64,000 nt of DNA, taken from Corynebacterium coyleae (GTDB taxonomy: Bacteria; Actinomycetota; Actinomycetes; Mycobacteriales; Mycobacteriaceae). This document shows positions 5,022 to 55,744 of the stretch, piece by piece (the stretch's first letter is position 1; every line of letters begins with the position of its first letter). A model generated the notes under the pieces. It saw only the letters and a program-made list of their open reading frames with translations. It was not told where the DNA came from and did no database searches. The translations under genes were made by a program, and so were the position numbers. The stretch covers positions 434,001-498,000 of the forward strand of contig NZ_CP047198.1 of assembly GCF_030408635.1 (NCBI RefSeq), written 5' to 3'.

Positions 5022-5852
5022 ATGGATGAGACGATGCGGCTGCGATTGGATATCGCCTACGATGGCACCGATTTTCACGGTTGGGCGCGCCAGAAAAGCG
5101 GCATCCGCACAGTCCAACAGACCATCGAAGAGGCGTTGAGCCTGGTGCTGCGTAGTAGCGTCTCCCTTACCGTCGCTGGACGCACCGACGCAGGAGTCCA
5201 TGCCTCGGGACAGACCGCCCATGTGGATATTCCTCGCAGCAGCCTTGATCAGCGTTCGATTGAGGGGGACCCGGGACGGTTGGTTCGTCGATTAGCAAAA
5301 CTGCTCCCGGAAGACGTCCGCGTATTTAATGTCGAGGAAGCGCCAGAGGGGTTTGACGCGCGTTTCTCGGCGTTGGCCCGCACCTACGTATATCGGGTGA
5401 CTACGCATCCGGCAGGTGCGTTGCCAACACGGGCGCGCGATACGGCGGTGTGGCCAAAACCTATCAACCTTGAGACGACACAGGCGTGTGCCGATGCGCT
5501 TGTGGGCTTGAACAACTTTGCGGCGTTTTGCCGCCCGAAGGAGCATGCCACCACGATCCGCGACGTGCATTCTTTCGAGTGGTCGCAGGTCGAGGACACC
5601 GTGTACGAAGCGCGCATTGTTGCGGATGCGTTTTGCTGGAATATGGTTCGCGCGCTGACCGCGACGTGTTTAACCGTCGGGGAGGGCCGCCGGGGGAGTG
5701 ACTGGCCAAAGGAGCTCTTGCTTCGCGACGAACGCGCGCCCGAAGTCCCACTCGCTCCCGCTCGTGGCCTGACGTTGGTCGGCGTCGAGTATCCCGCTGA
5801 TTCTGAGTTAGCTGCCCGCGCCGAAGCTACCCGCGCGCGTCGCGAGATGTAG
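5022..5852 (+). CDS. truA: tRNA pseudouridine(38-40) synthase
   Basis: A 276-residue TruA that converts uridines 38-40 of the tRNA anticodon arm to pseudouridine. The catalytic aspartate is in GRTDAGVHA (about residue 56). The opening LDIAYDGTDFHGWARQ and the C-terminal FCWNMVR segment are also typical. An upstream TTG (5013) is in frame, but the ATG at 5022 is preceded by TAAGAT at -10 spacing, suggesting a leaderless mRNA starting here. Its position after rplQ is the usual actinobacterial one. A basic tail ends the protein. Confidence 0.95.
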   Translation: MDETMRLRLDIAYDGTDFHGWARQKSGIRTVQQTIEEALSLVLRSSVSLTVAGRTDAGVHASGQTAHVDIPRSSLDQRSIEGDPGRLVRRLAKLLPEDVRVFNVEEAPEGFDARFSALARTYVYRVTTHPAGALPTRARDTAVWPKPINLETTQACADALVGLNNFAAFCRPKEHATTIRDVHSFEWSQVEDTVYEARIVADAFCWNMVRALTATCLTVGEGRRGSDWPKELLLRDERAPEVPLAPARGLTLVGVEYPADSELAARAEATRARREM

Positions 5853-50304: not shown

Positions 50305-51517
50305 CGACATTATCGATCTGCTCGCAGAAACCCCGGCCGACCTTGCCGACCTGCGCCGCCGCCGACCCGAAGCGGTTGAAAACGCCCAGCGCAGCTTCGC
50401 AGCCCTGTTTGAGCCCACCAACCCGACACTCATCGAGGCCCTGCCGGTTGCCACCCGCTACGCCGTCGCCGCTTTCGTCGCCGGCATTTCCGGTGCGCAG
50501 CGCGCCGCGGAGTTTTACGCGGATTTGCTTGTCGACGAAGACGAGGCGCTCGTTGCCGTGGTCGAAGACGCGGTGCGCGCAGGTGTATCCGCCGGCCCCT
50601 ACGCGGGCGGGGACTTTGTCACCTTCGGCGAGGGGCAGCTCGCCGCCGCCTTTGACTTCGCCCACCTGCTCACCTTCCACCCGAAGGACGCCTCGCCCGC
50701 GGCGATCGGGCACCTGCAGACCACTGGCTACACCGAGGACGCGATCGTCTCACTCGGCCAACTCATCTCCTTTGTGGCGTTCCAGCTGCGCGTCGTGCAC
50801 GGTGTGCAGGTGCTGGCTGGGGGAGCGGCTGCGGGTGGTTCGGGTGCTGCTGTTGCGGATGCTGCTGTTGAGCGCACCGCCGGCGTCGCCGATCCCGGCT
50901 GGACGCCCGCTGCGGTGACCCTGCAACCCGAGGTCGTCGCACCCGAGAAGTTTGTCAACCACTCCCTGGGGTGGAAGCCGTGGGTGGCACCACTTGAAGA
51001 TTCCGAGTTCACCGACGAGCAACGCGACGCCCTGATCAAGCCGGAACGCATCGGCATGGAGTACTTCCGTCTGCTCGCCCGCGACCCGCAGGCGCTGAAA
51101 GCCCGCACCCTGACCGACCTGGACATCTTCTACAACACCGAAGGTGGCCTGGGCCGTGCCGAGCGCGAACTTGCCGCCACCGTCGCCTCCCGTCTCAACG
51201 GCTGCGAGTACTGCGCATCAGTGCACCAGGCACGTTCGAAGGAGGAAGGCGGCGACGCGGAGGCGATCGACCGCCTGCTGGACGAAGGCGTGGAGGCGGA
51301 CCTTGGCTCTGATGCCTGGGACGCGATCCGCCAGGCTGCGGTTGCGCTGACCCGCACCCCGTTTGAATTCGGTGCCGAGCACGTCGAGGTATTGCGCGAG
51401 GTCGGGTTGGATGATCTGGCGATCATCGACGTGATCAACTCGTCAGCCTTCTTCAACTGGGCCAACCGTCTCATGCTCACGCTCGGCGCGCCGGATGTGC
51501 CGAAGCGCTACCGCTAG
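50297..51517 (+). CDS. Fused CMD/alkylhydroperoxidase-like protein
   Basis: A 406-residue protein made of two carboxymuconolactone decarboxylase (AhpD-like) halves. The N-terminal half (about 1-180) resembles CMD proteins of the Avi_7170 type and lacks a Cys pair. The C-terminal half (about 230-406) has the redox motif NGCEYCASVHQARSKE (C-x2-C with the proton-relay His) of the Avi_7169 type. These are usually separate genes beside a family 5 ABC transporter; here they are fused. TTG start, overlapping the ATPase stop; a TTG one codon earlier is possible. Confidence 0.82.
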   Translation: MSNDIIDLLAETPADLADLRRRRPEAVENAQRSFAALFEPTNPTLIEALPVATRYAVAAFVAGISGAQRAAEFYADLLVDEDEALVAVVEDAVRAGVSAGPYAGGDFVTFGEGQLAAAFDFAHLLTFHPKDASPAAIGHLQTTGYTEDAIVSLGQLISFVAFQLRVVHGVQVLAGGAAAGGSGAAVADAAVERTAGVADPGWTPAAVTLQPEVVAPEKFVNHSLGWKPWVAPLEDSEFTDEQRDALIKPERIGMEYFRLLARDPQALKARTLTDLDIFYNTEGGLGRAERELAATVASRLNGCEYCASVHQARSKEEGGDAEAIDRLLDEGVEADLGSDAWDAIRQAAVALTRTPFEFGAEHVEVLREVGLDDLAIIDVINSSAFFNWANRLMLTLGAPDVPKRYR

Positions 51518-52026
51518 CGCTTAAACCTGCGGCGGCGTTTCTGATCGCGCCACACGAGGTCGTCGGCACGCCATTGCTCGGGTGGCGTCGGGTTTTCGGC
51601 GTAGGCGAACAACCAAATGAACAGCAACACCACGAACACGCCAAAGGTCACACGGTTATCGCCTGCGTCAGCCGCCGCCGGGATGAAAATGATCAGTCCG
51701 AGCAGAAGCAGCCAGCCGGTGCGGCACTCCTTCTGTTCGATGGGGCTGCGCTGATCCTTGCGGGTAAAGATCGCCCGGCCAGGGCTGATGTCCTCCCCGA
51801 GGCGCGGCATGAGCAGCCAACACAACAGGTAAGCGAAAATACCGCCGCCGAAGAAGAACCCGGTGAGCACAAACGCGATACGCACCGCCACCGGGTCGTA
51901 GCCGTAGCGGGCGCCGAAACCGGTGCACACACCGCCGAATACGGCCCGACCACCTTGGTCTTTCGTGATGCGCCGCGGGCGGGTTTCCCACATGTGCTTC
52001 AGCGATGTCGATGAGTTTTGAGCCAT
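51514..52026 (-). CDS. PspC-domain membrane protein
   Basis: A 170-residue protein with the PspC core (GGRAVFGGVCTGFGARYGYDPVAVRIAFVLTGFFFGGGIFAYLLCWLLMP, about residues 25-75) and two later hydrophobic segments (GWLLLLGLIIFIPAAA and VTFGVFVVLLFIWLFAYA). It resembles the N-terminal half of EsrI, including the MWETRPxRI opening. An earlier ATG at 52035 is also possible. Its stop overlaps that of the convergent fused CMD gene (CTAG). Probably an envelope-stress-related paralog; no partner kinase is adjacent. Confidence 0.75.
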   Translation of the reverse strand: MAQNSSTSLKHMWETRPRRITKDQGGRAVFGGVCTGFGARYGYDPVAVRIAFVLTGFFFGGGIFAYLLCWLLMPRLGEDISPGRAIFTRKDQRSPIEQKECRTGWLLLLGLIIFIPAAADAGDNRVTFGVFVVLLFIWLFAYAENPTPPEQWRADDLVWRDQKRRRRFKR

Positions 52027-52093
52027 GCGTGCCATTATCCGTATCTCCGGCGGACTTCGCAGCAGAGGTTTCGAGAATGGCGGGGCCTGCGCG

Positions 52094-52196
52094 AGGGCCT
52101 TTGTAGTAACTCGAAAGCTACTAGAAAGCTACTCGAAAGGGAATGTTTCTAGGTTGAGCTGCGAAAACTCGTCTACTAGAAAGCCTTTCGAGTAGA
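52094..52196. repeat. Upstream copy of the ~100-bp direct repeat flanking the AlbA_2 gene
   Basis: This copy holds 11-bp units CTCGAAAGCTA (52110), CTAGAAAGCTA (52121) and CTCGAAAGGGA (52132), then a shared block ending in a near-palindrome at 52173-52195 (CTACTAGAAAG-C-CTTTCGAGTAG). The palindrome ends 10 bp before the GTG of the AlbA_2 gene, so it overlaps its promoter or leader. The first ten bases match the 3' end of that gene. Confidence 0.9.
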
Positions 52197-52205
52197 ATTC
52201 CTCGC

Positions 52206-53597
52206 GTGAACCCTGAAAGAAACTATCGAGATGACCCGAGCCTTCTTCTGCGTCTGCCGGAAGATCAATGGTTCGAGCGAAAGTCTTTCCGCATCAAGCC
52301 GAAGGATCTCGCCAAAACCATCGTCGGCATGGCAAATGCGGAGGGCGGCATTATTGCTGTCGGAATTACTGACCGGGAGTTTGATGGGGCACCGACGCCT
52401 AAACAGGACAATGATCTGAGACAAACATCGCTCGACCACACGGATCCAACCGTGCGCGTTCGAATCGAGCCGTTCGATATCGGCGACGGTGCACAGGTTT
52501 ACCTGTTTCATGTAGACCCGAGTGAGCATGTGCATTATTTGCGGTCGGGGGACTGCTTCCTGCGTGTCGGCGACGAATCTCGGTTACTGAATGCAGACGG
52601 CATTCTCGAACTGCGTTACACCAAGGGTGAGCAACAGTTCGATGCGACGGTGCTGCCCCGTGTCGGTATGGGTGATCTCGATATGGAGGTCGTTGGTGAA
52701 TGTGCCAACGTTATTGGTTCTTCTTCCGCTGAAGACGCTCTTAAAGCAAGAAATCTCATCGACCGTGAAGGTAGGCCCCGAACAGCAGCACTTTTGCTCT
52801 TCGGTAAAGACCCGCAAGAGTTCTTCCCTAATGCGCATGTCCGTGTTCTGCGGTTCGGTGAGGATGAGCGGCTCGCGGGGCATCAGCAACAGCTTTTGGC
52901 CGACGACCGGTTTGAGGGGCCGTTGCCACAACAAATTTGGGCTGCTCAGCGGGCGATTGAGGGGATGCTGCCGCAAGTCCGGCGCCTGGGTGCTTCGGGG
53001 TTGTTCGAGGATGAAAATCTCATCCCGAACGACGTTTGGCTTGAGGGATTAGTAAATGCTGTCATTCACCGGTCGTACAGCATGGCTGGTGACCATGTGC
53101 GGTTCGAGATCTATCCATCTCGCATCGAAGTTTCGAGTCCGGGGCGCTTTCCCGGTTTGGTGGACCCCACACGACCAGAATCTATTGCTCGATTTGCACG
53201 CAATCCTCTCATTGCGCGGGTGACGGCAGAGCTTCGGATTGGTCAAGAACTCGGCGAGGGTATCCGCCGTATGTTTGCAGGTATGCGGCGAGTGGGTTTT
53301 GCTGACCCGATTTACCAGCAGACGAGCGGAAGTGTTCTGCTCACGTTGAAGGCGGTTCAACGGCTTGATCCGAAGACCGCGGACTCCCTCCCGCCTCACG
53401 CCGACAGCGCCCTGTCAGTCATGCAAGCGAAAGGCACGCCAATGTCTACGGGGGAGGTTGCAGATGCTTTGGGGATTTCGAACCCGCCTGCCCGCCGCGC
53501 GTTGAAAGCGCTGCGGGAGGAGGGCCTTATTCAATGGCGCGGTAAAGGTCCGCGGGACCCTCGGGCGGTATGGCTTTTGGAAGGGCCTTTGCGGTAG
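52206..53597 (+). CDS. AlbA_2 (Schlafen-type) ATP-binding regulator-like protein
   Basis: A 463-residue protein. It has an N-terminal AlbA_2/divergent AAA-4 domain (about 15-130: EDQWFERKSFRIKPKDLAKTIVGMANAEGGIIAVGITD) and a central segment typical of RecG-like HATPase_c_4 proteins (LIPNDVWLEGLVNAVIHRSY, GRFPGLVDP, GQELGEGIRRMFAGM). A C-terminal winged helix (STGEVADALGISNPPARRALKALREEGLI) completes it. Such proteins are common on islands and next to defence genes; their biochemical role is unsettled. GTG start. The gene is bracketed by direct repeats with operator-like palindromes, so the winged helix may bind them and autoregulate (inference). Confidence 0.82.
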   Translation: MNPERNYRDDPSLLLRLPEDQWFERKSFRIKPKDLAKTIVGMANAEGGIIAVGITDREFDGAPTPKQDNDLRQTSLDHTDPTVRVRIEPFDIGDGAQVYLFHVDPSEHVHYLRSGDCFLRVGDESRLLNADGILELRYTKGEQQFDATVLPRVGMGDLDMEVVGECANVIGSSSAEDALKARNLIDREGRPRTAALLLFGKDPQEFFPNAHVRVLRFGEDERLAGHQQQLLADDRFEGPLPQQIWAAQRAIEGMLPQVRRLGASGLFEDENLIPNDVWLEGLVNAVIHRSYSMAGDHVRFEIYPSRIEVSSPGRFPGLVDPTRPESIARFARNPLIARVTAELRIGQELGEGIRRMFAGMRRVGFADPIYQQTSGSVLLTLKAVQRLDPKTADSLPPHADSALSVMQAKGTPMSTGEVADALGISNPPARRALKALREEGLIQWRGKGPRDPRAVWLLEGPLR

Positions 53598-53695
53598 CTC
53601 GAAAGCTACTAGAAAGCTACTAGAAAGCTACTCGAAAGGGAATGTTTCTAGGTTGAGCTGCGAAAACTTGTCTACTAGAAAGCCTTTCGAGTAGA
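53582..53695. repeat. Downstream copy of the direct repeat flanking the AlbA_2 gene
   Basis: This copy begins inside the last codons of the gene. It has units CTCGAAAGCTA (53598), CTAGAAAGCTA twice (53609, 53620) and CTCGAAAGGGA (53631), one unit more than the upstream copy. The following block is identical except for one C/T change. Another inverted TTTCTAGTAG follows at 53699. No gene start lies behind it. Confidence 0.9.
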
Positions 53696-54357: not shown

Positions 54358-55744
54358 GGGTTAAGGCTCAAAAAGTGTGTCCGATTGGGCTGATTTTTAG
54401 CAGTTGATCTGGGCTAATGCTGAAAGTATAAGCGCTGCGGGTATATATCTGGCAGTTTCGCTCTCAATCCACGGTGTGGCTGCCTTGGTGTGCTACGGGG
54501 CGGTGGTTCGGTTGCCCAATGCCAAAGAACCGACCACGCTGCCATTGTGGCGGCGATATGAAACGAAACGGCACCACCAGCAACGGAACTACCCGATGGC
54601 GATGCAAGGCTTGCGGTGCGTCCAGCGTGAAACGTCGTGACGATCTAGCCAACGCTGCGGTGTTCGCTCAGTTCATCGATCACTGCACCACGTCAACCTC
54701 GTTAAGGGCAATGGCTCAACGCCACGGGATCAGCCTTGCCACCATGAAACGACGGTTTACTTGGTGCTGGCTGGTTGACGTGCCTGACCCGACCATCGGC
54801 CATACAGGCAGGGTCTACGACCAGATCTTCATCGACAGCCACCTACACCGCAGGTGGCTGTCTGATCGTGGCGGCAACGCTCGACCACGTCATCGCCTGG
54901 CACTGGTGCAAACAAGAAACCACGCACGACTACAAGCGCCTGCTCGAGCGCATCGAAGCACCGTTGATCGCTGTGATCGACGGTGGCCGAGGAGCCACAA
55001 GCGCAATTAAAACGTGCTGGCCAAACACCAAAATCCAACGCTGCCTCGTGCACGCCCAACGCAGAGTACGCCGCTACACCACCTCACGACCACGCACTGA
55101 TGCTGGCCGCACCATCTACCGACTCGCGCTGAAACTCACCCGCATCACCACCCTGGACGAGGCTGCACAATGGGGTGCACAACTGCAAGAGTTCCACACG
55201 CTCTACAAGGATTGGCTCAACGAAAAGACACAGGTCAAAGACCCGAAAACGGGGAAAGACACACTCGTGTGGACCCATGTCAACGTGCGCAAGGCCTACA
55301 ACAGCCTCAACCACCTGTGGCGCAATGACCTGCTGTTTGTCTACCTCAAGCCCCCGAAAGGTGTGCTTAAGCCGCATCGGATCAAATCCACCACCAACAG
55401 CCTTGAAGGCGGCATCAACGCCCAATTGAAGCTCCTTGCGAGAACTCATCGCGGCAGATCAGGTGAGCACCAACGCAAAATGCTGGATTGGTGGCTGTAT
55501 CTGAAAACGGAACTGCCTGGCGATCCAATACACATCGCCAGGCAGTCCAACTGGGGCCAGAACCAACTCGCCAAAGTTACAACCCTGACCCGAAACGAGA
55601 ACCAAGCCGACTATGAAACTTCGACGACCAGCCCTCTACGACAACGGTATCGATACCGAGTACACACACTCAATCGGCATCCAAAAAGGCCACATCTAAC
55701 CCCCGCGACACGCCGAGCCAGACACACTTTTTGAGCCTTAACCC
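54358..55744 (+). mobile_element. IS1249-like insertion sequence
   Basis: A complete element of 1387 bp. Perfect 24-bp terminal inverted repeats lie at 54358-54381 (starting GGGTTAAGGCTC) and 55721-55744. Both ends are flanked by GGTGTC (54352-54357 and 55745-55750), probably part of the target duplication. The length and the single transposase with an N-terminal zinc-ribbon agree with corynebacterial IS1249. The transposase frame is broken, so the copy is probably inactive unless helped in trans. Confidence 0.9.
54519..55734 (+). pseudogene. IS1249-type transposase, frameshifted
   Basis: The ATG at 54519 begins MPKNRPRCHCGGDMKRNG, a CxC...CKAC zinc-ribbon, then a helix-turn-helix (SLRAMAQRHGISLATMKRRF). 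At about 54839 one extra C shifts the frame exactly after the first catalytic aspartate (VYDQIFIDS). The continuing frame reads TYTAGGCLIVAATLDHVIAWHWC and carries the rest of the DDE/MULE-like domain (AVIDGGRGATSAIK, TNSLEGGINAQLK) to the stop at 55734. No slippery heptamer is seen at the shift, so an inactivating mutation is more likely than programmed frameshifting. Length corrected for the shift is about 404 codons. Confidence 0.85.

Follow-up and report, generated by a model that had tools for sequence, protein, structure and literature searches.

In the window, the 64,000-nucleotide stretch of Corynebacterium coyleae DNA analyzed here, the gene for a bacterial Schlafen protein is framed by two copies of a direct repeat (R) that carries an operator-like palindrome. 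With moderate confidence, we read this arrangement, R-gene-R, as a one-gene cassette that would repress itself through R and whose gene may be lost, and possibly regained, by recombination between R copies.

Anatomy of the unit and its protein

Comparison of the two flanks showed that the same 88-bp block stands on both sides of the gene (Table 1). The three CTMGAAAG units upstream (at 52110, 52121 and 52132) and the four downstream (at 53598, 53609, 53620 and 53631) are as described by the first-pass annotation; the two copies of R are 98% identical, with two mismatches instead of the one counted there. Each R consists of tandem CTMGAAAG units, a centrally placed TTGAGCTGCG and, at its right end, a palindrome that is identical in the two copies and contains one more unit. 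The palindrome does precede the start codon, as had been noted, but its size is 25 bp rather than 23 (with one imperfect pair) and its gap to the GTG at 52206 is 9 bp rather than 10. Downstream, the unit array starts at the stop codon. The sequence AGGGCCTTTG, from the 3' end of the gene, recurs at 52094 ahead of the left R, in agreement with the earlier observation that bases of the gene end are part of the upstream repeat; once this stretch is counted, the likeness of the two flanks starts at 52094 and 53582, respectively. The scrap looks as if it were the remnant of an earlier tandem copy. The long ends of the unit are direct repeats, and inverted units occur only singly, at its outermost edges. 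The G+C content is 56.7% for the gene, 43% for R and 62% for the window.

A search of the genome with R returned the two blocks and three scraps (a palindrome half at 487683–487708 and two 15-bp matches). The first-pass annotation had proposed searching for the unit elsewhere; outside the two blocks, neither its longer form, a 12-mer (GCTACTMGAAAG), nor the pattern of the palindrome occurs in the 2.51-Mb genome and, because they are confined to these blocks, the pair is not a product of chance. Rfam gave no match between 51900 and 53900. A core like TTGACCTGCG is found between units and palindrome in the R of many relatives, corresponding to 52154–52163 and 53653–53662 in the window. Adjoining the right neighbor of the unit is a Mutator-type transposase region (54474–55734) in two overlapping frames, either frameshifted or decayed.

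Table 1. Positions, within the window, of the R-gene-R unit and the genes beside it
Feature	Positions	Strand	Remarks
Left neighbor gene	51514–52035	-	PspC domain; outside the element
Scrap resembling the gene 3' end (AGGGCCTTTG...)	52094–52108	+	Before left R; the solo R of G105 has such a scrap too
Left R	52109–52196	+	Three CTMGAAAG units, core TTGAGCTGCG, palindrome
Core TTGAGCTGCG	52154–52163	+	TTGACCTGCG or CTGACCTGCG in many relatives
Operator-like palindrome TCTACTAGAAAGCCTTTCGAGTAGA	52172–52196	.	By eye, may overlap the -10 element of a leaderless promoter
Bacterial Schlafen gene, 463 aa, GTG start	52206–53597	+	SLFN_AlbA_2 19–128, HATPase_c_4 295–381, winged helix 403–447
Right R	53608–53695	+	98% identical to left R; further unit ahead at 53598
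Palindrome, second copy	53671–53695	.	
Right neighbor gene, 166 aa	53711–54211	-	No Pfam match; outside the element; same-site probe in relatives

All three domains that had been assigned to the 463-codon gene were found by Pfam: SLFN_AlbA_2 (PF04326, E 9.8e-18), HATPase_c_4 (PF13749, E 1.3e-15) and a winged helix (HTH_24, E 1.5e-6). NCBIfam returned no match for the protein, and its PADLOC matches were Argonaute-associated models. The AlphaFold model has a pLDDT of 87.6. Its top Foldseek match, and thus the closest solved structure by fold, is DIP2311 of Corynebacterium diphtheriae (PDB code 3lmm, E 2.6e-22), with most of the chain aligned at about 20–22% identity. Chains of SLFN12, SLFN11, SLFN14 and SLFN13 matched much more weakly (E 1.6e-3 to 5e-3), amid unrelated winged-helix matches of similar E. 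We know of no tested function for DIP2311.

In the family alignment, all 70 rows have Glu19, and 68 of 70 have Glu or Asp at position 24. Their spacing is that of the SLFN13 active-site pair Glu205/Glu210, a putative equivalence judged by this spacing rather than by structural alignment. The candidate third acid, Asp56, is kept in just 46 of 68 rows. Passages of one paper (PMC5862951) give Glu205, Glu210 and Asp248 as the catalytic acids of rat SLFN13 and state that the loss of the two glutamates leaves SLFN13 inactive.

The protein family and its defense role are already known or proposed. A 2026 survey (PMC12839542) describes, in the part consulted, proteins composed of a Schlafen RNase, a minimal histidine kinase and a winged helix as effectors, proposed to act against phages, whose close linkage with BREX loci extends over at least 1017 taxa; for the part played by bacterial Schlafens in phage defense, it refers to a preprint of 2025. 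The window protein has the same domain order as the Schlafens of that part of the survey (SLFN_AlbA_2, HATPase_c_4, winged helix), and its family has candidate catalytic acids spaced as E-x4-E and homologues near integrase genes in temperate phages. In contrast to these bacterial Schlafens, the window gene stands alone, with a copy of its operator-like region on either side, and solo copies of that region outlast the gene. Among the five neighboring ORFs scanned by Pfam (PspC, CMD-family, the 166-aa gene and two Mutator-type transposase frames), none is a defense gene.

Sixteen phage records match the window protein, 11 of them at 48–50% identity; these 11 comprise nine Gordonia phage records (BatStarr, Nymphadora and their kin) and two of Mycobacterium phage Squirty. 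The Schlafen gene lies near an integrase and a repressor gene in the two phage regions examined, from Gordonia and Mycobacterium temperate phages. That slot holds other genes in the related Kita and Bunnybear, in the latter a RelE/RelB pair. IMG/VR contributed three relatives, two of which are the phages already found, as judged by length and identity, and plasmids yielded five distant matches (27–33% identity). The domain order, the BREX-linked survey and the phage homologues therefore make a defense role of the window gene likely, and the gene probably encodes an anti-phage Schlafen of the tRNase type.

Flanking repeats and gene-less sites among relatives

The gene is present in 45 of 242 Corynebacterium genomes (E<=1e-30), with a single match in each. 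A locus was scored as positive if direct repeats of at least 40 bp lay on both sides at a distance of at most 350 bp; 34 of 44 Corynebacterium loci scored as such, which marks R-gene-R as characteristic of the family, compared with 1 of 144 control ORFs (0/29 other ORFs of the window and 1/115 other ORFs in the fetched loci). These counts cover 44 of the 45 genomes, G176 being left out; L063–L072 and L101 (genomes already counted) and L104 (a partial match) were excluded. For the window controls, 32 ORFs of at least 250 aa, which are ORFs and not annotated genes, were selected and 30 were tested, 29 of them other than the Schlafen gene. Paralogues were dropped as a negative control since 6 of 18 had flanking repeats themselves (some far away; at the gene edges in L019, L027 and L030), and other ORFs were used instead.

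In other taxa, 7 of 30 loci were positive by the same test, although at least L099 among the seven owes this to an apparent duplication of other sequence, not R. As no flanking repeat was found in 10 of the 44 Corynebacterium loci and in 23 of the 30 others, the repeat is not needed for the gene. The 44 loci fall, by hand grouping, into 22 neighborhoods, nine common to at least two genomes and thirteen singletons, for which the adjoining 1.6 kb had no counterpart beside another locus (E<=1e-8); some singletons may be diverged shared sites.

The repeats found have a constant orientation relative to the gene (loci were re-oriented by the gene), and the unit sequence varies among genomes (TCGAAAG, TCGAAAC, TTGATAG, TCTAAC and others). 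Of 220 mismatched pairs, 15 gave a match, and these include related species at the same site. In 30 of 34 genomes, the left R resembles its right-hand partner more than it does any foreign R, a result favored by the use of within-genome matches to fix the limits of R; the exceptions are close sister species. Frequent recombination, conversion or re-making of such pairs seems to occur.

The window's site was compared between species with the right-hand 166-aa neighbor as the probe. The full R-gene-R is found in the window genome (G000) and in G129. Elsewhere, the comparison of related genomes that the first-pass annotation had suggested had a positive outcome: a single R without the gene stands at this site in G061, G216, G260, G002 and G105 (with a gene-tail scrap in G105), an internally deleted copy, with only the last 41 codons left between two R, in G139, and extra repeat copies at other sites in L058 and L059. 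The assembly of G260 is 77% complete, and its solo R was read at the site itself; the contig of G002 stops ~80 bp to the left of its solo R. Mere fragments resembling R ends are present in G142 and G161, and R is absent from the site in G016, G035 and G212. Among more distant relatives, the full form adjoins the same right-hand neighbor in G188 and G009 and lies between CMD and the 166-aa neighbor in G025, and G183 has the gene with the left R alone. In four gene-less genomes (L130, L131, L132 and L134), the ends of CMD and of the 166-aa gene are 20–32 bp apart.

A second site, at proA, shows the full form in G012, G186 and G189, a solo R in G159 and G160 and, in G126 and G192, two R copies that stem from a local duplication, with the gene absent; in the latter two genomes (L167 and L166, respectively), the flank is duplicated together with R and an inverted-repeat-like stretch lies between the copies. 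In G264, an IS256-like element splits the Schlafen gene and a 290-bp repeat frames the region; there, two inverted IS256-like transposase ORFs lie inside the gene and a 231-aa ORF adjoins (L168, 5254–8860). Two further arrangements were seen without a Schlafen gene. Locus L165 (G191) has two R copies (2707–2803 and 5374–5470), 93% identical and separated by 2.67 kb; duplicated ORFs, some protease-like and some small, lie between these copies and next to them. Loci L169 and L170 (G004 and G246) each contain two 31-bp unit blocks 76 bp apart, possibly a relic of R, between dihydrolipoamide-dehydrogenase-like and regulator-like ORFs.

These states suggest that the cassette is lost by recombination between R copies and, possibly, regained via R, and they back, at the level of sequence, the idea put forward in the first-pass annotation of a unit with its own operators that is lost or duplicated through its repeats. 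A solo R could arise by ordinary recombination without involvement of the protein; it is no proof of a dedicated mechanism, because 90-bp direct repeats alone may suffice for deletion. Target-site duplications were not readable at the sites compared, where no pre-insertion site was close enough.

A neutral origin was weighed against these same observations, in which the gene and its promoter would have been duplicated in tandem and one gene copy then lost, with repetition by chance. The gene-tail scrap before the left R, the R-scrap-R of G139, the 290-bp repeat around the IS-broken copy of G264 and the local duplications in G126 and G192 all fit such debris. However, 34 of 44 homologues show this state, as do members of other subfamilies, whereas 1 of 144 control ORFs does; this frequency already counts against debris, which we regard as very unlikely.

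The comparison of G000 with G129 also bears on transfer between species. At four-fold sites, the gene is identical at 178 of 238 positions and CMD, PspC and the 166-aa gene together at 94 of 194 (p 2e-8). DNA identity goes up at the left R edge, stays at 84–97% per 100-bp bin across R and the gene, and drops at ~53780, just inside the right-hand gene. In G061, the solo R agrees with the window R at 87 of 87 positions, compared with 146 of 263 four-fold sites in the flanking genes. Because the likeness of R and gene exceeds that of the flanks, either the cassette or R may have passed from one species to another, with breakpoints near the edges of R, or R is strongly constrained. The distant holders G188, G009, G025 and G183 have no excess of silent-site likeness of the gene over its neighbors; transfer is therefore supported within one close clade only.

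Probable regulation and recombination, and alternative readings

Ahead of the start codon, 41 of the 44 Corynebacterium loci and 16 of the 30 others have an ACT..AGT palindrome. By eye, it often overlaps TANNNT, a possible -10 of a leaderless promoter. TTGACC was rejected as a -35 element because, by eye, it is not suitably spaced from the likely -10. Half-sites pair with recognition helices, ACTCGAAA with the PPVRRAL type, ACTCTAACA with RPTVLRHL and ACTGTAACA with TRMTATRAL, with exceptions (L061 and L062 have the same helix and differ in one half-site base). An uncorrected mutual-information ranking of columns, dominated by shared ancestry, was discarded; one of its top 20 columns lay within the helix. 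After correction for distance, residues 423–430 rank second of 435 sequence windows for co-variation with the half-site. This speaks for the earlier proposal that the winged helix recognizes the units, although the region near residue 133 scores slightly higher and ranks first, and shared ancestry confounds the ranking. The palindrome before the start codon and the half-site/helix co-variation thus make autorepression through R likely.

The downstream R could also have a purely regulatory purpose, as a second operator. Repressor bound at both ends would loop the gene and silence its toxic product, selection and gene conversion would keep the copies alike, and a solo R would be the residue of gene loss. 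The prevalence of the upstream palindrome and the co-variation of operator half-sites with the recognition helix are compatible with this, and some homologues elsewhere have, by eye, related half-sites past the stop codon without a long repeat. However, identity between the copies spans the spacer and core too (131/131 bp in L008, 91/91 in L051), beyond the expected need of operator selection, and the extra and scrap copies of R show recombination. We consider a solely regulatory role unlikely.

In the one-gene cassette that we favor, the protein probably acts as a repressor of its own promoter, with the winged helix bound to the TACTCGAAA half-sites of R, as the family and the anatomy of the unit suggest, and repression would keep a toxic anti-phage RNase off until it is needed. 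Since a second R follows the gene, oriented like the first, the gene can be removed with a solo R left in place; recombination between the R copies, most simply by RecA, would have this outcome. Unequal exchange between R copies would give rise to extra or scrap copies, and a solo R of ~90 bp could take up R-gene DNA from another species. No match for the R-gene-R architecture, with an operator that doubles as a recombination end and with solo copies, was found in the literature searched, including the consulted parts of PMC12839542, PMC6299218 and PMC5862951.

A more active part for the protein can be envisaged, in which the unit is an autonomous mobile element of one gene: the Schlafen-ATPase-winged-helix protein would bind the R ends, pair them, and cut or join DNA, such that the cassette excises and inserts elsewhere. 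The occurrence of the gene in ~22 neighborhoods (hand grouping) among 44 genomes would agree with this, as would ends made of arrays of one half-site plus a core like TTGACCTGCG, and paralogous subfamilies that are also flanked by repeats, with other units. Against it, the element does not multiply, with one match (E<=1e-30) per genome in all 45; its single gene contains no known recombinase, transposase or integrase domain by Pfam; its long ends are direct rather than inverted repeats; the compared sites have no readable target duplication; and many homologues persist without a downstream R. Taken together, we judge an autonomous element quite unlikely. Just as doubtful is its broadest form, that the actinobacterial SLFN_AlbA_2/HATPase/winged-helix genes form a new class of mobile elements with a single gene each, whose protein would recognize operator arrays as its ends, perform or trigger excision and docking at a solo R around the conserved core TTGACCTGCG (CTGACC-like in the GATATAGAAAG family), and so shuttle a phage-defense gene between chromosomes and phages.

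Related systems and a second gene family

Defense genes turn over fast, usually aboard phages, plasmids or islands that bear a recombinase. In R-gene-R, the turnover of one gene seems to proceed via its own duplicated operator region, leaving a recognizable scar that is a potential landing site. A formal parallel is found in solo LTRs, where a gene-bearing form has two terminal direct repeats and a gene-less form has one; R-gene-R and solo R share these two forms, and the repeat pairs are likewise alike within a genome. Unlike LTR elements, R-gene-R has no reverse transcriptase or integrase, its repeat holds the operator-like palindrome of the gene, and a genome has a single copy. Integrase-dependent islands and pdif-type modules also have a gene between direct repeats, each with a short core and arms, and one repeat where the gene is missing. 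R-gene-R shares the gene between direct repeats and the lone repeat, but contains no recombinase and has repeats of ~90–140 bp built of operator-like units. The R signature offers a way to find one-gene defense cassettes, as well as sites that have lost one. Should the protein take part, this would be a recombination system without a known recombinase.

HATPase_c_4 genes of other subfamilies, 23–31% identical to the window protein where matched, have similar flanks with other units. Flanking repeats were found in 11 of 26 distinct loci of these subfamilies. The underlying scan scored 32 of 34 loci, 16 as positive, before sorting by subfamily; L208, L209, L216, L218 and L219 (four positive) belong to the window gene's own subfamily, and L188 and L207 are one locus. 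Three of the 11 are in doubt: the repeat of L204 is set apart from the gene, and the repeats of L195 and L198 match at only 81%.

One of these loci is in the window genome itself. A second R-gene-R, with a gene of another Schlafen/AlbA_2 subfamily, occupies 2278–4330 of L190 (G000:C1, ~2,439.8–2,441.8 kb), next to an ORF that we take to be leucyl-tRNA-synthetase-like. Its repeats, 148 bp long and 93% identical, contain GATATAGAAAGATATC units as well as a CTGACCTGGGG core. A CTGACC stretch akin to the core of the window R is seen in this subfamily (L190), and CTACCTGCGG in Gordonia phage BatStarr, upstream of gp38 (L185). The same genome has a third AlbA_2/HATPase gene, broken into two frames, with 56-bp repeats of CAACTTCCCAACTACTTACC-type units (L188, G000:C1, ~228.2–229.6 kb).

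The second family also comes in full and solo states. The gene with two R copies is found in G129, G139 and G161; at G129's site, G216 has a solo R and the gene is absent. G061 is likewise solo at this site, with 85% identity over 2,326 bp on the right and just 226 contiguous bp on the left. G216 and G129 are the cleanest full-versus-solo pair, the left flank with R being 92% identical over 1,590 bp and R with the right flank 86% identical over 2,239 bp.
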